Below are positions 23,591-47,245 of a DNA stretch of 64,000 nt, in pieces. Source of the stretch: Fodinibius roseus (GTDB lineage Bacteria; Bacteroidota; Rhodothermia; Balneolales; Balneolaceae); contig NZ_FQUS01000014.1 in assembly GCF_900129315.1 (NCBI RefSeq), forward strand, positions 62,001 through 126,000, written 5' to 3'. The notes beneath the pieces were generated by a model. It had not been told where the DNA came from. It saw nothing but the letters and a program-made list of their open reading frames with translations, and made no database searches. Made by a program: the position numbers and the translations under genes. Within the stretch, counting starts at the first letter, position 1; each line of letters starts with the position of its first letter.

Positions 23591-24396
23591 TTAACTGACG
23601 TCCGCTGTCTTTCTTCGCATCCCGCGGGCGGCTTCCACCATATTTTCCAGCGACGGCAGCGTCTCTTCCCAGCCGCGGGTCTTCAGTCCACAGTCGGGGT
23701 TGACCCATATCTGCTCAGGGTCAAGCACATCCGCGGCTTTCTCCAGCAGCGCGACCATCTCTTCGGTCGACGGTACCCGGGGAGAGTGGATATCGTAGAC
23801 ACCGGGACCTATTTCATTGGGATAATCGAACTCCACGAAGGCATCCAGCAGCTCCATCCGGGAGCGGGAGGTCTCCATGGAAATGACATCCGCATCCAGG
23901 CGGGCAATATGTTCGATCACATCATTAAACTCGGAATAGCACATGTGCGTGTGGATCTGTGTTTGATCCTCAACCCCAGTAGAAGCCATGCGAAAGGCAT
24001 CTACCGCCCACTCCAGATAGCGGTCCCAGTCGTCCCGCCGCAGCGGCAACCCCTCCCGGAAGGCGGGTTCGTCAATCTGGATAGCCTGTATGCCGGCTTC
24101 CTCCAGGTCTTTGACTTCATCGCGGATGGCCAGGGCAATCTGTTTTGCCGTTTCAGACCGGGGATTGCGCCCACCAGCAGCGCCGTATCCAGCACCTGAT
24201 CATAGAGTGAGAAGTCATTCGACGGGACCCGGTCTATGCCCGCTTCTTTCTGTTTGGTCCAGTGCATCACCCGAAGGACTTCAGTGGATTCCACCAGTTT
24301 TGATTTATCGATATCGCCTTTCCAATACGATTCTACGATTTTTTTAAGATCTCTGTTGGTACCTATCCGCGGATACCCGAGGTTGTGAGTAAGCAT
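23591..24396 (-). pseudogene. metE: metE remnant: internal deletion plus frameshift
   Basis: Two frames together make the two ends of cobalamin-independent methionine synthase. From 24396, MLTHNLGYPRIGTNRDLKK to [17 protein letters not shown] equals roughly the first 80 residues. At about 24160 the homology jumps, in another frame, to [16 protein letters not shown] and continues to the natural C-terminus (end 23591) with the zinc-site segments [11 protein letters not shown] and [12 protein letters not shown]. MetE is normally about 750-770 residues, so roughly 500 codons are missing and the frame changes at the joint. The product cannot be functional. The upstream cobalamin riboswitch is intact, suggesting recent loss in a cell that uses B12-dependent synthesis instead (inference; no metH here). 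Confidence 0.85.
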
Positions 24397-38497: not shown

Positions 38498-38671
38498 ATG
38501 AATCTTGACATACCAGAGGAACAGTTCCGGGAAATTCTTGAACAGATTAAAAGTGACGACAGTCCCGTAGGCATTGATGCGGGAAAAACACATGTACTCA
38601 TACTGCAGAAGCTTTTGGATATTGAAAGCCGTCTTGAGGAGTTGGAAAAAGCGTTCTCAAATAATGATTAG
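38498..38671 (+). CDS. Small helical protein, 57 residues
   Basis: ATG at 38498 to TAG at 38671. The product (MNLDIPEEQFREILEQIKSD, then AGKTHVLILQKLLDIESRLEELEKAF) is acidic and strongly helical, ending in a short coiled-coil-like heptad. Codon pattern and amino-acid content look genuine. No family is recognised. It is convergent with the glycosyltransferase-like gene, 210 bp away. Confidence 0.6.
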   Translation: MNLDIPEEQFREILEQIKSDDSPVGIDAGKTHVLILQKLLDIESRLEELEKAFSNND

Positions 38672-38881
38672 CCGTGGACTGCTATCAATTCAACGCACTG
38701 GTCCGTCATACCATCCTGTCTTAGTTCAGAGCACATAACGAGATCAGAATTCAGGGTAATAATCGTAATAATACGATGCCCTAAACGGCGGGGCAACTTG
38801 CATATCTCGCCCACTGCATTCTAACGTGCAAAAATAATGGGGAAATAGGAATTACTATACGTTCACCAACACAAAAAGGAT

Positions 38882-39985
38882 CTAAAGCATAGATTTATAA
38901 TATTGATAGTAGGTATTGATAACATATAAGCCTACTACCATCTGTATCAACGCCGTTAACAGTACAAAAATCCATATCCATACCAAAGAGAGCGACCAGC
39001 CGACAACAGCCCACATAAATACATTTATTACCCCCATTATCCCAGCAAACAGGAGCATGTCGACTGATGAGGGAGTAATCAGGTCCATGACACTCTTTAC
39101 ATAAGACCATGATTTGTGCCGGTATCCAGCTTTAAGAAGTTTAGGAATATAATGCCTGATAGTCGAGATCCAACCCGTCTTGCAATTTTCTTTCCTTTTA
39201 AATTTGTTTTTTGCTGGCATTGTCGGTATCTCAGTCAAAAGAACGGCCTCCTGTACAAAGTCAATTTCTATACCCTTCAGCTGTAGCTTTAGCCCATAAC
39301 CGATATCATCAGCCGCAGAGTCAAGCAACCATGGATTACTGCGTAGCGTCTCCGTTTTAAAACAGATCCCATTGCCCCGGTACTCTCTACAAAAACCGAA
39401 CAGTTTTCTACCCAGTGGTTTCAATAAATTGTGAAGTAAAAAATTAATTTGTTTAACTCTTTTAGCTTCAAGTCCAGATTGCGGTAACATAAGATTACTA
39501 CTCTGGATAACGTCGCTGCCCTTATCCAGATAAAAATTCATTACATCCAAATAATTACCGGAAACCAAACTATATGATTCAATTACCAATATAGCATCAT
39601 AGGTTTTGTCGACCTGCAAAATTTTTTCAAATGCTCCCTGTAGATTACGACTATCCGATTGCCGGGAAGATCCATTATTACTCAGGACATTTGCTCCCAT
39701 CTCGCGGGCAATATTAATGGCGTCTTTCGATAGATTATCTCCTATCAAAAAGACATCGTATAGATTTTTCGGGTATACCAGTCCAAACAAACTGTATAAT
39801 GACTTGGATATCATTTGCTCATTTTTTGGGGCAGGCATTATAATTGCAAACTGGCGATTTTGCACCGAATTAAAAGCAATTTTATTTCTCACTTTTAAGG
39901 CCTGAATACTCAGTGTTAATTGATAACCAAGTAAAATCATCATCAGAATCCCTATGCCGTATTGTATTACTTCAATAAATATCAT
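38882..39985 (-). CDS. Glycosyltransferase-2-like membrane protein lacking catalytic motifs
   Basis: A 367-residue protein with an N-terminal TM (about 5-25), a GT-A-like domain (about 45-290) and two or more C-terminal TM helices (about 308-360), the layout of cellulose/chitin-synthase-type GT2 enzymes. The fold signature survives: FAIIMPAPKNEQMISKSLYSL, IGDNLSKDA, NGICFKTETL, SAADDIGYGLKLQLKGIEI. However, the DxD position is ESY (136-138, LVIESYSLVSGN), and the QxxRW motif is CKTGW (268-272). Catalysis is therefore doubtful; it may bind a glycan or regulate a partner. Visibly AT-rich compared with flanking genes. A purine-rich stretch (GAAAGGTAGG) just precedes the ATG. Confidence 0.7.
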   Translation of the reverse strand: MIFIEVIQYGIGILMMILLGYQLTLSIQALKVRNKIAFNSVQNRQFAIIMPAPKNEQMISKSLYSLFGLVYPKNLYDVFLIGDNLSKDAINIAREMGANVLSNNGSSRQSDSRNLQGAFEKILQVDKTYDAILVIESYSLVSGNYLDVMNFYLDKGSDVIQSSNLMLPQSGLEAKRVKQINFLLHNLLKPLGRKLFGFCREYRGNGICFKTETLRSNPWLLDSAADDIGYGLKLQLKGIEIDFVQEAVLLTEIPTMPAKNKFKRKENCKTGWISTIRHYIPKLLKAGYRHKSWSYVKSVMDLITPSSVDMLLFAGIMGVINVFMWAVVGWSLSLVWIWIFVLLTALIQMVVGLYVINTYYQYYKSML

Positions 39986-41160
39986 TTAACCTACCTTTCT
40001 ATCTGCTTCAATCTTATTCAGCGAAATAACTGGTTGTATTTTATTTATAAATATTCAAATTCAGATATACTGAACGCTGGGTTTTAACGGAGCATTAGTT
40101 TCAAAATTTCAGATACCCTAAAATGATAATCTGCCTGTCCCTGACCTTATCAAACAGGATCCTATTGCTACCAATTTTAAAAACGTCAAACGAATTACTA
40201 ATCAAAATTACAGTCTACCCTTTTATCACATTACATCACTATCTATTCCATTTATGAGGCAACAAATGTGCCAAGAAGTTTGGGATATAATAATTTGTCT
40301 TTTAAAACACGTTAAAGCGACTTTGACAATATATCTTCAGGCAATGAAGTAACTTTTATTCTCACTGTACGTCCTATGTGTAAAATATGTACGTACTGTA
40401 ACTTCTACTGACCAGTCGTTTCAAACTGATTAACTTATAATCGTACCCTCATACATGGGCATTTTGAAAAATCATAGATATGATTTTTTTTCGGAGAACT
40501 GGAGAAATATTCGATAAAAGAGGCAAAAAAATTAGTCGGCGGTCGTGCGGATGAACGTAATCTTACTTGTAAAAGGAGCATGCTCCTAATTGTTATAATC
40601 GATCCAATAAGCCCTTCAGACACTATTAGGATTCCCTGCACGGGAGATAATATTGCTATGAAACTATGATACACATTGAGGATATCCTGTGAAATTTATT
40701 CACAGAGGGATAGCGAATTTCAGGGGAATCTTACCCACCACCATATGAGTTGCTTCAGGAATATGCATCTATATACAGTGATACTATGCAATCGAAGCTG
40801 CTGAAAGTTTGGCACATTAATTGTATTAATTAATGTAAGCTATCCCAGTATTACACAGACTATATCCTGATAACAAAGGATTTTAAAAGAAAGGCAAGCA
40901 GGGATTGAAATAAGGCTCTTAAGGTTACTCAACCTTTCTGAGGATGGGTAGGCTCAGCTTTTAATTTCACCTTCACGGCGGAAGAAAATAGAGTTCAGTT
41001 CAAAATTATCGGTGGATACATTAAAGATTGGAAAACAATCGGAATATTTATCAGACCAGGTAATCAGTACCATACATTTATTGACCGTTTCACATTATAG
41101 AATATTAGAATCGAATAAGCTTCTAAAACCCAAATCATTTTATTTAACCATTTATCAACC
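39986..41160. other. AT-rich gap with possible decayed coding stretches
   Basis: A region of 1,175 bp with no complete gene I can support. Three short plus-strand open stretches read as protein-like but lack starts or are interrupted: about 40490-40660 (YSIKEAKKLVGGRADERN), about 40720-40835 (ISGESYPPPYELLQEYASIY), and 40942-41100 (AEENRVQFKIIGGYIKDWK). These look like remains of lost genes rather than regulatory DNA. The region separates the divergent glycosyltransferase-like and AAA-like genes and contains a sigma-54-like promoter candidate. Confidence 0.4.
40809..40825 (+). promoter_or_regulatory. Candidate sigma-54 (-24/-12) promoter
   Basis: TTGGCACATTAATTGTA contains GG at 40811-40812 and GT exactly ten bases later, close to the consensus TGGCAC-N5-TTGC. 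It points toward the AAA-like gene at 41161, about 335 bp downstream, and lies in an island that carries an intact sigma-54 activator. One match in AT-rich DNA could be chance. Confidence 0.3.
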
Positions 41161-41991
41161 ATGGTAACGACAAAATCTGTTATTAAAAAACCCTTGCTGA
41201 ATGATATAGAAAAGTCTTCGAAAAGTCTTCTCATGCAAGATATTTTTTATAAAATCCTGCGACTGGCCAAAATAGACACACCAGTGATATTAGTTGGTGA
41301 AATAGGATCCGGTACAAAGAGATTGGCACATGTTATCCATAAAAACAGCGACAGGGCGTTAGCACCCTTTCATACGTTTAATTGTTTAGGTATACGGGAA
41401 GAAGAATACAAAGATGCCTTTTGGGGACAGCTACAGTTTGATGATAATCATCTTTCTCTTAAATACGATCTCCTTGAAAAAGCGGTAGGAGGTATTCTTT
41501 ATCTTGATCAATTTTCTGAGCTTTCGCCAAGCTTAATGCTGAATATTCTTGATTCCTATCAAAAAGGTTGCAAGCAGTTATTTCGGCATAATAAGCAAGC
41601 TAAACCCAGACTTATCCTTTCTTTTAACCAAGAGTCATATCACAAAATTCTGACTCATTCCATCTGGGAAAAGTTACTCGGTGAACTAAACCCGGTAGTT
41701 CTGATGCTTCCACCCCTACGTGAGCGTAAAGAAGACATACCTATATTGATTGATCATTTCATAAAAGAGATAAAAACGAATTATCCCGATTATAAAGATT
41801 TAAACATATCTTCCCGGGCTCTTATAGAATGTTATGACTATCATTGGCCAGGTAATATACTGCAGCTTAAAAATGCTATCTTTCACGGTGCTATTCTTTC
41901 ACACGGACAGACAATTGAATTAGAGCACCTGCCTTTTTCGATGAGCTGGAAATCTCCGTATACCATACATAAGAATAATACCTCCCTTTAA
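41161..41991 (+). CDS. Sigma-54-activator-like AAA+ protein without catalytic motifs or HTH
   Basis: A 276-residue protein made only of a sigma-54-interaction-type AAA+ domain. The fold is clear: TPVILVGEIGSGTKRLAHVIH, GGILYLDQFSELSP, PPLRERKEDIPILIDHFI, YHWPGNILQLKNAI. But the Walker A reads GEIGSGTK (46-53) with Thr in the Lys position. Walker B is D116-Q117 instead of DE. The GAFTGA loop is absent (about 87-93, FWGQLQF). The arginine-finger segment REDLYYRL is replaced by SIWEKLLGEL. No receiver precedes and no Fis-type HTH follows the domain. It cannot be a normal activator; an inhibitor or hetero-oligomer partner of the intact activator at 43894-44916 is an attractive inference. Confidence 0.75.
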   Translation: MVTTKSVIKKPLLNDIEKSSKSLLMQDIFYKILRLAKIDTPVILVGEIGSGTKRLAHVIHKNSDRALAPFHTFNCLGIREEEYKDAFWGQLQFDDNHLSLKYDLLEKAVGGILYLDQFSELSPSLMLNILDSYQKGCKQLFRHNKQAKPRLILSFNQESYHKILTHSIWEKLLGELNPVVLMLPPLRERKEDIPILIDHFIKEIKTNYPDYKDLNISSRALIECYDYHWPGNILQLKNAIFHGAILSHGQTIELEHLPFSMSWKSPYTIHKNNTSL

Positions 41992-42263
41992 GTCCCGGTA
42001 CCGTCTACTACGTTCGTCCAACGGCGACGAGGTAAATGGGAATGACCAATGCCGTTCGAACGGCTTTATCAGGAGCTGATACATCCGCAGCAAACCGGTG
42101 TGATTTTCCCAACCTCAACAGCTGCTTGCGGCTGTTTGGAGCTATGCTCAGAGAATAGCAGAAGGATTGGAGCACAGGCCGAGAGTACCAATATAATTTG
42201 AACCGGTAGCTGTCTCGCTAACTGGATTAAAAAAGTCTGCAGAAATTGCCGGGTTGCTATACC

Positions 42264-42902
42264 TTAATCAATCAGGTTTTGGTCCAGGGCATAGCGGGTA
42301 AATTCCACATTCGATTTCAACTTCATTTTTTCTTTTATACGAAATCGATAGGTGTGAATGGTCTGTACGCTCAAAGATAATTCGTTGGCAATTTCATTTA
42401 CTTCCTTACCTGAAGCTATCATACACATAATTTGATACTCCCGGTCCGAAAGTGTTTCATGCAATGGCTTATTGCCGTTCATGTCCATACTACTAACCAG
42501 CTGTTCAGCCACATCCTGGCTGATATATTTTTTATTGTGAATAACTATTCTTCGAATGGCTGTAATTAACTGTTCAGATATGCTTCGTTTATTCAAATAA
42601 CCATGAGCCCCAGCCTTAAGTGTACGAACCGCAAAACGATCCTCAGGATGAATGCTTAATATCAGAACCGGCAAATCCGGATAGGAATCCTTTACTTCTT
42701 TCAGCACATCCAACCCGCTTTTGCCAAGCATGGCAATTTCAAGAATTAAAATATCGGGTTCCAACTCCCGTAGTTTATCCATGAGTTCATCTGCACCAGA
42801 AGCCTCTCCTATTACGTCAATATCAATTGTGCTTTGTTTTACTACTTTTTTCAGACCCTCCCGAACCAGGGGATGATCATCAGCTATAAATATATTTATC
42901 AT
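42264..42902 (-). CDS. NarL/FixJ-type response regulator with Glu at the phospho-acceptor site
   Basis: A 212-residue protein: receiver domain (about 1-120) plus LuxR-type HTH (about 145-210, LSDREYQIMCMIASGKEVNEI, where the recognition helix is LSVQTIHTYRFRI). The receiver has the acidic pair (IADDHPLV), Ser in ILSIH and Lys in LNKRS, but the phospho-acceptor Asp is replaced by Glu55 (DILILEIAMLGKSG). Asp-to-Glu often mimics the active state. No histidine kinase is in the window. The 272-bp gap upstream in coordinates (41992-42263) shows no gene. Likely a phosphorylation-independent regulator of the island. Confidence 0.85.
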   Translation of the reverse strand: MINIFIADDHPLVREGLKKVVKQSTIDIDVIGEASGADELMDKLRELEPDILILEIAMLGKSGLDVLKEVKDSYPDLPVLILSIHPEDRFAVRTLKAGAHGYLNKRSISEQLITAIRRIVIHNKKYISQDVAEQLVSSMDMNGNKPLHETLSDREYQIMCMIASGKEVNEIANELSLSVQTIHTYRFRIKEKMKLKSNVEFTRYALDQNLID

Positions 42903-43893
42903 GGTTATGTCTAAAGTTAATTTATTGCCCCTTCCAAATGATTTCGGTAACTATAACAGATGCTGTGGTATGCTGCATTATTATCCATTTTGCCATATCT
43001 CAACCACATTGAATTCCGGGCGAGAGTTTTAACCCTCTCAAATTTAATTTGAACTTCGGGCTGATTCCTTCGCCTAAAACCGATAGCTTTATAACAGGCC
43101 ATTACTAATCTTTTCTTTGCGTATTCTGTACCGTTTAATGTTTTATTACGAGTAATTTTTCATCCTATCGATCCCCTGAGGGAGATAAAACCACATCAAT
43201 TCCATCGCTAAAGAAAAAAATGGTTCCCGCAGATCTACGCCTCTCTTTAGTTTTCAGCAAATTCTTCTTAGTTTATTTTTCTATTTACCAGATTGTTTCT
43301 CAGTTGAACATGTACCCACACAAATAAGACAGATCTCTACTTTCAATATCGGAGTTCTGGTTTTCATTATTTATGTGAAACATTCTTTAAAGAACAATTA
43401 CCATGCCAAAGCTAATTTATGGTAACCAGAAGCGTTTAAATTGATTAGAGACATTATTTTCTGCAGTATCACTGCGGATAATTTTCACATCCGTAACTGC
43501 ACGTGAAAAAAGGTTACATCTCGGTCAAGCCGGATTTCTCACTTCCAAAAGATTGTTAGATAGGCAAAGTGAATGCTGACTGCGCTTTTACCAACTATTG
43601 AGGCAGCAGAGGTCTGATCCTTAATCGGCAAGCATAAAAGCTATAAGCAGGAGAGAATGGGAGTGACCATGCCATTTTTTGGTAGAACCTCAGCTAAGCG
43701 GTAGATTGCCGTCGGTAAATTATGACGACAAACAATTATGGCAAACCCAAAAAGACGAAATTACAATACAGTATTTAAACTGGACGTAATCCAGCAAAGT
43801 TGGCAGTCCCGATTATCATTATATTAATGATATATCCTTTTAAAATCCCTTATTTATCAACCCTCTTACATAAAATATCTATACAAACACCCA
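42903..43893. other. Intergenic region of the AT-rich island, possible transposase trace
   Basis: A region of 991 bp with no supportable gene. At 43738-43836 a plus-strand frame MANPKRRNYNTVFKLDVIQQ resembles the N-terminus of IS3-type OrfA transposases (RRxYxxxFKxxV) but stops within about 30 codons, so at most it is a remnant. At 43221 a 34-codon hydrophobic frame (MVPADLRLSLVFSKFFLVYF) is too short to call. A 61-codon frame on the minus strand at 42917-43102 has no supporting features. Confidence 0.35.
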
Positions 43894-44916
43894 TTACTTT
43901 CCTTCATATTTCTCCAGCTTGTTATGCAATGTCTTACGGCTAAATCCAAGAATTTTCGAAGCTTCCGTTTTATTATTATCCACAGAACTTAACGTCTGGT
44001 TAATAACCTTACGCTCCACCTCCTCTAAGCTTACGCCAACCGGTACCTGAATATAATTATCAAATTCACTTTTCTTTGGAGAAACCGGGTAAACCTTATC
44101 CCCTGCCTGCAGGTGGGAAGGAATCGCATCAGCCTGTACTTTTTCCCCTTCACACAACACCGCACAACGTTCTACGATATTTTTCAACTCCCGAACGTTT
44201 CCCGGCCAGCCATAGGACGTAAATATATCCATACATTCCTCCGAAAATTCGATGGGTTTCATATTGTAGGTGTCAGCAAAGTGATTCGAGAAATATGAAA
44301 CTAATAGTGGGATATCCTCCCTGCGATTCCGAAGAGGTGGAATATAAAGCTCTATGACATTCAACCGGTAATATAGATCTTCCCGAAAATTGCCCGATTT
44401 AACCTCATCGATCAAAATTTTATTCGTGGCGGATATGATACTTACATCCACATTAATCTCCTTCTTACCACCTACCCTGCGGAATGACTGCATTTCAACA
44501 GCCCGTAAAAGCTTTACCTGCATATCTTTCGGCATCTCACCGATCTCATCCAGAAACAAAGTACTTTTATCAGCCAGTTCAAAACACCCTTTCTTTTTCT
44601 CACTGGCACCGGTGAAGGCTCCTTTTTCATGTCCGAAAAGTTCACTTTCCACGAGATCAGAAGGAATAGCCCCGCAATTGACCGAAATCATTTCCTTGTC
44701 ACTCCTGGAACTGTAATAATGAGCCATGCGGGCCATCACTTCCTTCCCTGTCCCGTTTTCACCTGTAATCAGAAGTGTTGCCCTGGTTTTAGCTACCAGC
44801 TTGATTTTTGCCAACAATTCTTTCATTACCTGGTTTTGGGTAATGAATACCGGTTTTGTTTCTCCTCTTTCTTTTCCTGTTTTATCCTGATTATTGCCAT
44901 TATTACTCTTAGTCAT
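43894..44916 (-). CDS. Sigma-54-dependent transcriptional activator (NtrC-type AAA+ with Fis HTH, no receiver)
   Basis: A 340-residue enhancer-binding protein with all activity motifs: Walker A GENGTGKE, ELFGHEKGAFTGASEKKKG (complete GAFTGA), Walker B TLFLDEIGEM, the arginine region FREDLYYRLNVIEL, PPLRNRREDIPLL and YGWPGNVRELKNIVE. The C-terminus (EVERKVINQTLSSVDNNKTE then SRKTLHNKLEKY) is a Fis-type DNA-binding helix-turn-helix. Only about 25 polar residues precede the AAA domain, so there is no sensory domain; control must come from another protein or from expression level. It hydrolyses ATP to remodel sigma-54 polymerase. It sits in the same island as a motif-less homologue. Confidence 0.9.
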   Translation of the reverse strand: MTKSNNGNNQDKTGKERGETKPVFITQNQVMKELLAKIKLVAKTRATLLITGENGTGKEVMARMAHYYSSRSDKEMISVNCGAIPSDLVESELFGHEKGAFTGASEKKKGCFELADKSTLFLDEIGEMPKDMQVKLLRAVEMQSFRRVGGKKEINVDVSIISATNKILIDEVKSGNFREDLYYRLNVIELYIPPLRNRREDIPLLVSYFSNHFADTYNMKPIEFSEECMDIFTSYGWPGNVRELKNIVERCAVLCEGEKVQADAIPSHLQAGDKVYPVSPKKSEFDNYIQVPVGVSLEEVERKVINQTLSSVDNNKTEASKILGFSRKTLHNKLEKYEGK

Positions 44917-45245
44917 TATATGTTGTACCCTCTATCTTTTTTTTTGATATATGATTGCCAACTAATTTTGACGCCCTAAGTCTCCTGCTACTTAAGGTAA
45001 AATGAACGTCCTGATCTTACTGGAATACTCTCTCTTAAGAGCTTAGGCTAATTGTTTGTCACCCTCCAGCAATTTGTCTTAATCACTCTTTCTCTATATT
45101 ATTTCGCGGCTTAAATTTAATAATTATCATTAAAGATGCAAGCAAAACTTCAATAAAGTTAATATATACATTGAATAATTAAAGCAATATCAATAACGAT
45201 AGAAAAACAAAGACATCATAAAATATTTTCCGATACAGGCAGGGG
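44917..45245. other. Intergenic region at the island edge
   Basis: A region of 329 bp between the sigma-54 activator start and the end of rnc, AT-rich. It holds the presumed promoter of the activator gene (a TTGGCAATCATATATC stretch on the minus strand has a -24-like half but no -12 element) and the short palindrome CTCTTAAGAG. No gene or clear terminator is seen. Confidence 0.4.
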
Positions 45246-45995
45246 TTAATTCTTATGTATTTTTTCCAGGGCTTTTTGTGCTGCATTTTGCTCCGCTTCT
45301 TTTTTGCTCTTCCCCACACCTTTGGCAACCGGTTTTTCATCCACATATACCTCAATTTCAAATGTTTTATCATGCCCCGGCCCCCGCTCGGATACAAGAC
45401 TATAGGTGGGAATTTCCATTTGCCGGGCCTGTGCGAACTCTAACAACAGGCTTTTATAATTGTCCAGCGTAGTAGTAATGGTATCAAAATCAATATGACG
45501 GTCAATAATCCTGCGAACGAACAGTGACACAGGCTTATAGCCGGCATCCAGGTATAATGCGCCGATGAGGGCTTCAAAGACATCGGCAAGGATACTTTTT
45601 GAGTTCTCAATACCCTGTCCCTGCACCTGATCGGCAAGCAACATCAGTTCATTAAGCTGAAGCTTTCGGGCAAACATGGCTAACGTATCACCTTTGACAA
45701 GTTTTGCCCGTAATTTGGTAAGAAATCCCTCATTTTTTTCAGGAAACAGGTCGAAGATAATTTCAGTGACTATAAGATCCAAGACGGCATCACCCAGAAA
45801 TTCCAACCGTTCGTAGGAGTCGGTGGGACCAAAATCATTCTCCACCAGCGTAGAACGGTGTCGCAGCGCCTGAACATAGATAAAGGGATTATCAACAGGC
45901 GTCTCTATGATCCGCTCAAGCTTGTCAATACGTTTTTTCAGCTCAGGAGATAGCTTCTTCTCTGATTTAAAAAGGTCCCTGAGCTTCTCAAACAT
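45246..45995 (-). CDS. rnc: Ribonuclease III
   Basis: A 249-residue double-strand-specific endoribonuclease processing rRNA and other RNAs. The catalytic domain contains the signature YERLEFLGDAVLDLIV and a second acidic site in ILADVFEALIGALYLDAGY. The C-terminal dsRNA-binding domain ends in SKKEAEQNAAQKALEKIHK. It is the last gene of the fab cluster, 5 bp after fabF, and is likely cotranscribed with it, an arrangement found in many bacteria. Confidence 0.93.
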   Translation of the reverse strand: MFEKLRDLFKSEKKLSPELKKRIDKLERIIETPVDNPFIYVQALRHRSTLVENDFGPTDSYERLEFLGDAVLDLIVTEIIFDLFPEKNEGFLTKLRAKLVKGDTLAMFARKLQLNELMLLADQVQGQGIENSKSILADVFEALIGALYLDAGYKPVSLFVRRIIDRHIDFDTITTTLDNYKSLLLEFAQARQMEIPTYSLVSERGPGHDKTFEIEVYVDEKPVAKGVGKSKKEAEQNAAQKALEKIHKN

Positions 45996-46000
45996 GCTAT

Positions 46001-47245
46001 TTATTCTTCGAACTTTTTAAACACAAGCGTCGTATTGTGTCCGCCAAATCCAAAAGCATTATTCAGAGCGTATGTGACGTCCCGAACCACAGCCTCATTA
46101 ACCGTATAGTTTAGATCGCACTCTGGATCGGGTGTTTCATAATTGATGGTAGGCGGGATCATGCCATGATAGGTAGCCAGCATGGTAGCCAGTGCCTCCA
46201 TGGCCCCGGCAGCACCAAGACTGTGTCCTGTCATCGATTTGGTGGAATTATGATTAATCTCATAGGCGTGCTCCCCAAAGACTTTTTTTATGGAGTTAGT
46301 CTCGGCAATATCTCCCAGGGGTGTCGAGGTTCCGTGCATATTGATGTGGTCGACATCTTCCGGCTCAATACCGGCTGCATCCAGCGCCCTGTTGATGGCC
46401 AGAATCACCCCTTCCCCGTCAGGGTCGGGTGCAGTAATATGATGGGCATCTGCTGAAAAACCATATCCGATGATCTCTCCGTAGATACGGGCTCCCCGTT
46501 CTTTGGCGTGTTCATATTCCTCGAGGAACAGGATTCCTGACCCTTCCCCGAGCACAAAGCCGTCCCGGTTTTTATCAAAAGGCCGCGAAGCCGTTTTGGG
46601 ATCATCGTTGCGGTTCGACATGGCTCTCATAGAAGTGAATCCGGCCACGCCTATCCGCGAAACCGGGGCCTCCGACCCGCCTGAAACAGCCATTTCGCAT
46701 TGACCGCTTTTGATAGAATCATATGCCAGACCTATATTATGGGATCCCGTCGCACAGGCCGAAACCGCACAAAAATTAGGGCCTTTAAAACCGTATTTGA
46801 TGGAAATCTGTCCCGCGACCATGTCAGGTATGAGCATGGGAATAAAGAAAGGAGAAACGCCCCGGGGACCATGTTCATGAAAAGAGATGGATTGATCATA
46901 AAAGGTAATCATTCCACCGATTCCTGTACCCACAATAACGGCTATCCGGTCTTTATCAACTTTTTCAAGATCAAGACCTGTATCCTGAATCGCTTCTTCA
47001 GCGGCAATAAGCGCATATTGACATACTTTGTCCAGCCGCCGGGCCTCTTTACGGTCGAAATAATCGAGTTCGTCGTAATCTTCAATCTGGGCAGCAAATT
47101 TTGTCGGAAAGTCCTCAGTGTCAAAATGCTCGATGGGACGAGCGCCACTCTTTCCTGAAATTAATCCATTCCAGAAATCCGGTGCCGTCTTACCTACAGG
47201 GGTAAGGGCACCGATTCCGGTAATGACTACTCTACGGTCAGACAT
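46001..47245 (-). CDS. fabF: 3-oxoacyl-[acyl-carrier-protein] synthase II
   Basis: A 414-residue elongating condensing enzyme. It joins acyl-ACP and malonyl-ACP in fatty acid synthesis. The catalytic Cys is in CAVSACATGSHNIG, and the two His residues are in INMHGTSTPLGD and KSMTGHSLGAAGA. A glycine-rich FGFGGHNTTLVF stretch closes the active site. The N-terminus RRVVITGIGALTPVG is typical. It lies between rnc and acpP, 44 bp after the latter. Confidence 0.95.
   Translation of the reverse strand: MSDRRVVITGIGALTPVGKTAPDFWNGLISGKSGARPIEHFDTEDFPTKFAAQIEDYDELDYFDRKEARRLDKVCQYALIAAEEAIQDTGLDLEKVDKDRIAVIVGTGIGGMITFYDQSISFHEHGPRGVSPFFIPMLIPDMVAGQISIKYGFKGPNFCAVSACATGSHNIGLAYDSIKSGQCEMAVSGGSEAPVSRIGVAGFTSMRAMSNRNDDPKTASRPFDKNRDGFVLGEGSGILFLEEYEHAKERGARIYGEIIGYGFSADAHHITAPDPDGEGVILAINRALDAAGIEPEDVDHINMHGTSTPLGDIAETNSIKKVFGEHAYEINHNSTKSMTGHSLGAAGAMEALATMLATYHGMIPPTINYETPDPECDLNYTVNEAVVRDVTYALNNAFGFGGHNTTLVFKKFEE

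Follow-up and report, generated by a model that had tools for sequence, protein, structure and literature searches.

A conserved sigma-54-activator paralogue without hydrolysis, sigma-54-contact or DNA-binding motifs: a possible silent ring subunit of the adjacent activator in Fodinibius roseus and its relatives

The window, by which we mean the whole 64,000-nucleotide stretch of Fodinibius roseus DNA analysed, encodes a degenerate sigma-54 activator (pseudo-bEBP, hereafter pEBP) close to the gene of a canonical activator (bEBP). We observed directly the motif losses, the conservation of the family, its place in the operon, the sequences of promoter and dyad, and the co-occurrence with the bEBP. 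The reading that we favour, at somewhat less than even odds (about 0.45), is that pEBP is a sigma-54-induced pseudo-ATPase which joins the rings of the adjacent bEBP and damps or retargets it. A preliminary description of the window had proposed an inactive bEBP homologue that could act on its neighbour. Family-wide motif losses, co-occurrence and the promoter and dyad strengthen that proposal, whereas the label of a motif-less protein did not survive.

An intact ORF was confirmed at exactly the pEBP coordinates given in Table 1. Pfam matches of its product were AAA_lid_14 (PF25601, 1.8e-18) and Sigma54_activat (PF00158, 6.8e-16); neither HTH_8 nor any other domain was matched in this search, in agreement with the earlier statement that the HTH is missing. 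The lid match stops at residue 266 of 276, leaving 10 residues to the end of the ORF. With no N-terminal domain and no HTH, pEBP has the architecture of the FleT type. An AlphaFold2 model (14 relatives in the alignment) gave a mean pLDDT of 82.8 and a pTM of 0.72. A structure search with this model placed FlrC (6luf) on top (Z 21.9, rmsd 3.4, 234 aligned); VpsR (7v2b) and PspF E108Q (4qos) scored Z 20.9 and 20.2, the top matches were bEBP AAA+ domains, and Z was about 20 to many bEBPs. The solved chain closest by sequence was that of ZraR (1ojl, E 2.5e-40, profile search). The ORF is the AAA+ domain of a protein of sigma-54-activator fold. Rfam gave no match at the gathering threshold within 38500-46500.

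Table 1. Positions within the window of pEBP and of the features around it
Feature	Coordinates	Strand	Remarks
Glycosyltransferase family 2 (GT2) gene	38882..39985	-	homologue with pEBP and bEBP in 8/8 pEBP-bearing Fodinibius genomes
-24/-12 box TGGCACATTTGTTGCC	40258..40273	-	toward GT2 gene; 14.6 bits
Dyad TGTGAAATTTATTCACA, candidate enhancer (UAS)	40688..40704	.	start 122 nt above the -24 box
-24/-12 (sigma-54 type) promoter TGGCACATTAATTGTA	40810..40825	+	15.1 of 19.4 bits; 351 nt before pEBP ATG
pseudo-bEBP (pEBP)	41161..41991	+	276 aa, ATG start; AAA+ plus lid only
LuxR-type response regulator	42264..42902	-	between pEBP and bEBP
Canonical bEBP	43894..44916	-	AAA+ and HTH_8, no N-terminal domain, motifs intact

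The motifs of the window copy were read from its alignment with the neighbouring bEBP; assignment of the Walker B Glu and arginine fingers to the ATPase site follows PspF (PMC3419264). The P-loop is GEIGSGT, with Thr52 facing the Lys of GENGTGK, and Walker B is YLDQF (Asp116-Gln117) facing FLDEI, so that both substitutions described previously, Thr for Lys and DQ, were found in place. GAFTGA is indeed missing, FWGQLQFD-DNHLSL occupying the position of LFGHEKGAFTGASEK in the neighbour. The arginine-finger segment had also been called missing; the segment itself is present and ungapped (IWEKLLGELNP versus FREDLYYRLNV), but both of its Arg are replaced. LPPLRERKEDIP is retained and the WPGN helix remains (WPGNILQL for WPGNVREL), again as described; within that helix Leu234 replaces the sensor II Arg, a loss to be added to the earlier list.

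Most of these losses are properties of a family. We recognised 28 members, one of which (G012) is truncated at a contig end, so that the N-terminal motifs could be scored in 27. GAFTGA, the Walker B Glu and the RxDxxxR finger motif were each found in 0/27; at the second Walker B position 19 have Gln, 3 have Asn and 5 have another residue. Trp occupies the first finger position in 25/27, the remaining two (G014 and G061) having gaps there and one Arg nearby, so that only absence of the motif is sure for them. The absence of GAFTGA, of the Walker B Glu and of the finger motif recurs across the 28-member family and so goes beyond chance. The sensor II Arg, by comparison, persists in 22/28 and is lost in G068, G014, G061 and throughout the clade formed by the window copy, G001 and G008. 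All these motifs are intact in the 26 neighbour-type bEBPs that we examined, one of which has GSFTGA. The P-loop Lys is kept by 26/27 pEBPs, and its replacement by Thr is therefore peculiar to the window copy; a family-wide loss of this Lys was ruled out, and in most members the fault should lie at hydrolysis. Judged from these motifs, most pEBPs probably bind ATP, while hydrolysis, sigma-54 contact and DNA binding are not expected; the window copy appears one step beyond the family pattern, its P-loop Lys having gone as well.

Traces of an ancestral DNA-binding domain are visible in a few members. The G061 protein has a weak match to HTH_8, below the cut-off (E 3.4e-4), and Fis-like tails were recognised by eye in the G014 and G012 proteins, which suggests descent of pEBP from an AAA+-HTH protein. 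That pEBP is a recent copy of the neighbouring bEBP was a possibility which we rejected from sequence scores and a tree. The window pEBP scored 80 bits against its neighbour and 85-104 bits against four other listed bEBPs of the genome, and a tree of 26 pEBPs (of the 27 then known, with G012 left out as cut short) and 26 bEBPs split the two groups with 100/100 support, placement of the long G014 branch being unsure. By sequence, pEBP is no closer to its supposed partner than to other bEBPs and would not be its recent duplicate, a counterpoint to the reading that we favour.

The family is confined to one order in our samples. A profile search with a wider alignment detected pEBP in 28/128 genomes of the order, which we take to be Balneolales, against 23/128 with the first alignment; related genomes are treated as separate in these and the other family counts. 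The same wider alignment gave 28/244 genomes of the class, all 28 falling in that order. A sample of the phylum (395 genomes) added 23 matching genomes outside the order, with frames of 451-520 aa and E values of 1e-48 to 1e-51; judged by length, these are the size of receiver-type activators. pEBP was thus not recognised outside its order among the 244 class and 395 phylum genomes, and a wider spread was rejected.

Neighbour-type bEBPs, counted at E<=1e-105, were present in 26/128 genomes of the order, and 23 of these 26 also had pEBP, a co-occurrence confounded by shared descent and shared locus. The three exceptions are G039, G124 and G125. Conversely, 5/28 pEBP genomes had no close bEBP at this threshold: G014, which carries a 50% bEBP relative beside the locus, and G085, G086, G100 and G057, which are fragmented assemblies. 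Within Fodinibius, pEBP was found in 8/12 genomes, and the four genomes without it were also without the bEBP at 1e-105. On the short contig of G125 (L137 1-4985), a Wza gene and a PorQ-like gene are followed by a convergent bEBP gene, with neither pEBP nor a WecA-type gene between.

pEBP is under purifying selection in the unsaturated pairs of relatives; pairs with the window copy were excluded and their dN/dS discarded, dS being saturated. Its dN/dS was 0.10, 0.12, 0.085 and 0.13 by NG86, and 0.085, 0.16, 0.13 and 0.17 by YN00. These values resemble NG86 values for WecA (0.09, 0.11, 0.04), Wza (0.09, 0.10, 0.05) and the PorQ-like gene (0.17, 0.17, 0.14). No sign of relaxed selection, which the preliminary description had named among the observations that would count against it, appeared in these unsaturated pairs (dN/dS 0.085-0.17), those with the window copy being saturated.

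The genes around pEBP point to polysaccharide synthesis. A Wza-type export gene, a PorQ-like outer-membrane gene and pEBP follow one another in one orientation in 20/28 genomes, with gaps of 1-11 nt between the PorQ-like gene and pEBP. A WecA-type transferase gene comes next after pEBP, also in 20/28 (19 of the previous 20, G010 being the exception, plus G012, whose contig ends inside pEBP). Where the DNA extends far enough, a Wzx/Wzy polysaccharide locus is made complete by divergent genes for Wzz, a tyrosine kinase, Wzy and Wzx. Domain names for these exopolysaccharide (EPS) genes derive from one genome (G048) and were carried to the others by similarity, the name PorQ-like reflecting weak matches.

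The locus is reduced in 7/8 pEBP-bearing Fodinibius genomes, the window included, where Wza, PorQ-like, Wzz, kinase and WecA genes are missing from it. These seven loci still hold pEBP, bEBP and GT2 together, and a GT2 homologue (35-49% identical) accompanies pEBP and bEBP in 8/8 pEBP-bearing Fodinibius genomes. The genome-wide search for EPS loss covered the Poly_export domain, the other EPS genes being judged at the locus; it returned one Wza relative of 818-875 aa from each of the seven genomes, and small Wza was absent. Within the window, tblastn at 1e-3 detected no remnants of Wza, PorQ-like, Wzz, kinase, Wzy, Wzx or WecA, nor of GNAT, GH5 or histidine kinase genes, and we rejected the idea that remnants of an EPS operon persist there.

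Several other features of these loci were recorded. The LuxR-type regulator of the window stands without the PAS histidine kinase that adjoins its F. sediminis counterpart (L070 9249-11111). In the stretch from the start of this regulator gene's coordinates to the bEBP gene (window 42264-43893), about 1 kb is left beyond the regulator in which no ORF of 80 aa was seen, and tblastn revealed no histidine kinase remnant. Two Fodinibius genomes carry a carbamoyl-phosphate-synthase-like ATP-grasp gene between pEBP and GT2 (L070 4837-6780, L072 8920-10872), with a -24/-12 box in front and an intergenic region shared with the dyad. Elsewhere in the window (23591-24396, minus strand), two adjacent short ORFs in different frames resemble pieces of MetE, the cobalamin-independent methionine synthase, and presumably represent a broken gene.

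A candidate sigma-54 promoter, consisting of a -24/-12 box with the dyad upstream, precedes pEBP in the window, and in relatives similar boxes lie ahead of pEBP or of the operon headed by Wza. Boxes were scored with a weight matrix built on the sigma-54 consensus, reportedly that of Barrios et al. 1999. The promoter set comprised 23/28 loci, with G012, G014, G061, G086 and G105 left out; a scan of G014 gave one 12.1-bit box pointing at Wza. We counted 34 boxes of at least 12 bits, in either direction, in the 23 upstream regions, 20 of which had at least one. Dinucleotide shuffles (200) of the same regions yielded a mean of 0.5 boxes and a maximum of 4, and 109 control gaps (50.6 kb) contained 9. 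Boxes pointing at the pEBP unit reached at least 12 bits in 14/23 regions and at least 9 bits in 20/23, the three regions with none of at least 9 bits being L081, L109 and L116. Several boxes of differing sequence occur per locus, at Wza/pEBP, Wzz and GT2. Upstream of the bEBP gene itself there was no box of at least 9 bits in 8/8 Fodinibius loci. rpoN was present in 14/14 genomes tested.

The exact dyad TGTGAA-N5-TTCACA occurs as a single copy in the 5.08 Mb genome of the window, upstream of pEBP, and once each in G001 and G008 at the same place. A search of 580 kb of DNA returned 8 dyad sites with 0-1 mismatch, 7 of them 90-140 nt above a box reading into the pEBP unit and the eighth inside an ORF of G061; as the dyad was identified post hoc in the very upstream regions where it was then counted, the genome-wide search alone is independent. 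Genome-wide, the exact dyad was absent from G002, G003 and G005, where degenerate copies are found; that of G011 and one of the two in G010 lie elsewhere. Among genomes without pEBP, G004 has one exact dyad and G007 two, and a reversed control pattern matched once in each of them. Other genera show a TGTGCA version at about the same distance.

The recognition helix of the bEBP varies along with this site. At the 16 loci with both box and bEBP that were compared, the helix has Ser/Thr ([FCV][ST]RKT) in 10 and Ala (GFARKT) in 6. The ten Ser/Thr proteins go with a TGAA half-site in nine cases and with TGTA in one (G065), while the six Ala proteins go with TGTGCA in four, TGTAAA in one and TGTATA in one. 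This covariation fits the neighbouring bEBP as the putative binder of the dyad, but common ancestry and a common locus confound it. The genome encodes a second bEBP (66% identity to that of the window) whose recognition helix reads NIARKT; in the 17 kb around its gene no match to the dyad was detected at up to two mismatches. This second gene (L185 7797-8792, G000:C18) follows three LuxR-type response regulators, beyond which lies a 1081-aa kinase-like gene in the other direction.

From these observations we propose the adjacent bEBP as activator of, and partner for, pEBP. The bEBP, whose own gene has no sigma-54 box, would bind the dyad and fire the -24/-12 promoter, which in most relatives would drive the EPS operon with pEBP as its third gene. 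The pEBP so made would, by its sequence, be unable to contact sigma-54 (no GAFTGA), to hydrolyse ATP (no Walker B Glu), to stimulate the site of an adjoining subunit (no finger motif) or to bind DNA (no HTH), yet it keeps the AAA+/lid core. It may then enter bEBP rings as a silent subunit, such that output would fall or be retargeted as product builds up, and the net effect would be a built-in feedback tuning capsule-type sugar genes. Binding of the dyad by the neighbour, formation of mixed rings and a negative effect are what we infer in this scheme. A product-induced silent ring subunit is the economical reading because the core is kept, the output motifs are gone, the bEBP travels along and the promoter type fits. 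The genomes that have one of the two proteins alone, the three regions without a box and the exact dyads found apart from pEBP count against the scheme. For the window copy itself, ATP-driven ring entry looks doubtful, since this copy has lost both the P-loop Lys (position 52) and the sensor II Arg.

Experiments on PspF indicate how such a subunit could behave. PspF E108Q forms constitutive hexamers (PMC4132715), and arginine-finger substitutions likewise do so (PMC3419264). Rings with alternating E108Q subunits still work, while rings alternating wild-type with loop-1-dead T86A subunits show no efficient activation (PMC4132715). Given this tolerance of E108Q subunits, a ring would not be poisoned by the altered Walker B motif on its own, and the missing loop 1 would carry any poisoning. 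Mixing of bEBPs has been reported for VnfA paralogues by two-hybrid and co-precipitation (PMC9542535).

The nearest precedent for pEBP is FleT of Rhodobacter (Cereibacter) sphaeroides. The preliminary description had cited PspF as a stand-alone AAA domain; PspF keeps its HTH, so it is not AAA-only. FleT is instead the AAA+-only precedent, a bEBP without N-terminal and DNA-binding domains (PMC7175178). Expression of fleT requires FleQ and RpoN2, and FleT, which lacks the HTH, forms hetero-oligomers with FleQ (PMC11999139). The FleT operon is switched on via sigma-54 and the partner bEBP, where for pEBP we have the -24/-12 box and dyad, and FleT acts in a hetero-oligomer (PMC11999139, PMC7277832), where mixed rings of pEBP would be the counterpart. 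FleT differs in serving flagellar genes as a co-activator with FleQ; pEBP has an EPS context and is without the ATPase and GAFTGA motifs.

This precedent raises the first rival to a damping role, namely that pEBP sits in the bEBP ring as a positive or specificity co-subunit, as FleT does for FleQ, and is needed for activation or redirects it at a subset of promoters; a specificity role comes first since the FleQ/FleT complex recognises another promoter class. The close match of architecture and regulation with FleT (PMC11999139, PMC7277832) speaks for it, the differing sigma-54 boxes at Wza/pEBP, Wzz and GT2 leave room for promoter classes, and PspF rings tolerate some hydrolysis-slow subunits (PMC4132715). 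We nevertheless consider it unlikely, as a subunit without GAFTGA is expected from the T86A linked dimers to disable its neighbours, not to help them (PMC4132715).

We give similarly little weight to a role outside transcription, in which pEBP would be a nucleotide-binding accessory of EPS assembly, its AAA+ fold turned to sensing or scaffolding on behalf of a protein encoded alongside, be it the WecA-type transferase, the outer-membrane protein or the kinase. Its fixed slot after the PorQ-like gene (20/28) and before the WecA-type gene (20/28), with short gaps, would suit such a role, as would the disappearance of all transcription-specific parts (GAFTGA, HTH), but seven Fodinibius genomes retain pEBP and bEBP where Wza, PorQ-like, Wzz, kinase and WecA have been lost from the locus. 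Least probable is that the window copy is a decaying remnant on its way out, as the missing EPS genes, Thr52 in this copy only and the clade-wide loss of the sensor II Arg might suggest, for its ORF is intact like those of its closest relatives G001 and G008, its promoter and dyad (the sole exact copy in the genome) are kept, and its dN relative to the bEBP in the window-G001 pair (0.179/0.117 = 1.5) lies inside the 1.06-1.97 of other pairs.

Other known bEBPs resemble pEBP in part. FlgR (Helicobacter) and CtcC (Chlamydia) lack the HTH, as pEBP does, but keep a signal domain and are counted as sigma-54 activators; activators lacking the DNA-binding and/or signal domain amount to about 4% (PMC3162934). 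HrpR and HrpS of Pseudomonas syringae, two bEBPs without N-terminal domains in one hetero-hexamer, are co-dependent activators (PMC4145663), whereas pEBP has neither an HTH nor the catalytic motifs. VpsR, R. capsulatus NtrC and Caulobacter NtrC have lost GAFTGA like pEBP, and VpsR, which was among the top structural matches, controls biofilm/polysaccharide genes; these three are DNA-binding proteins that work at promoters of the sigma-70 type (PMC10274813), unlike pEBP, which has no C-terminal DNA-binding domain and whose own gene has a sigma-54 box. Minor deviations of GAFTGA are reported for about 110 homologues (PMC3162934). The laboratory mutant PspF E108Q has the Walker B Asp-Gln seen in 19/27 pEBPs and still remodels holoenzyme (PMC4132715), pEBP being in addition without GAFTGA and the finger motif.

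bEBPs without an HTH and bEBPs with altered GAFTGA are thus already known (PMC3162934). What appears new in pEBP is that an architecture and apparent control resembling those of FleT are combined with a dead catalytic site in an EPS context; a search of the open-licence literature turned up no bEBP paralogue described as missing the ATPase motifs, GAFTGA and the HTH all at once. Other AAA+ machines are known to contain dead subunits. In its fullest form, our proposal is that pEBP is a natural, conserved dominant-negative subunit of a sigma-54 activator: hydrolysis-dead, sigma-54-blind and DNA-blind, ATP-binding in most members, made from a promoter that its partner fires, closing a loop on EPS synthesis through the make-up of the ring, and retained in Fodinibius after the locus had lost its export genes. 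We advance this composite statement tentatively, and with less assurance than the ring-subunit reading itself.

Mutant or linked PspF rings have served as a laboratory probe of how many active subunits an activator needs (PMC4132715). The pEBP locus would be a natural version of that experiment, in which selection has fixed a subunit without hydrolysis, sigma-54-contact and DNA-binding motifs beside an intact partner. It makes the tolerance of bEBP rings for dead subunits, and the possible use of such subunits for control, testable in vivo, and it puts forward a candidate regulator, together with its target dyad, for the EPS loci of the order.
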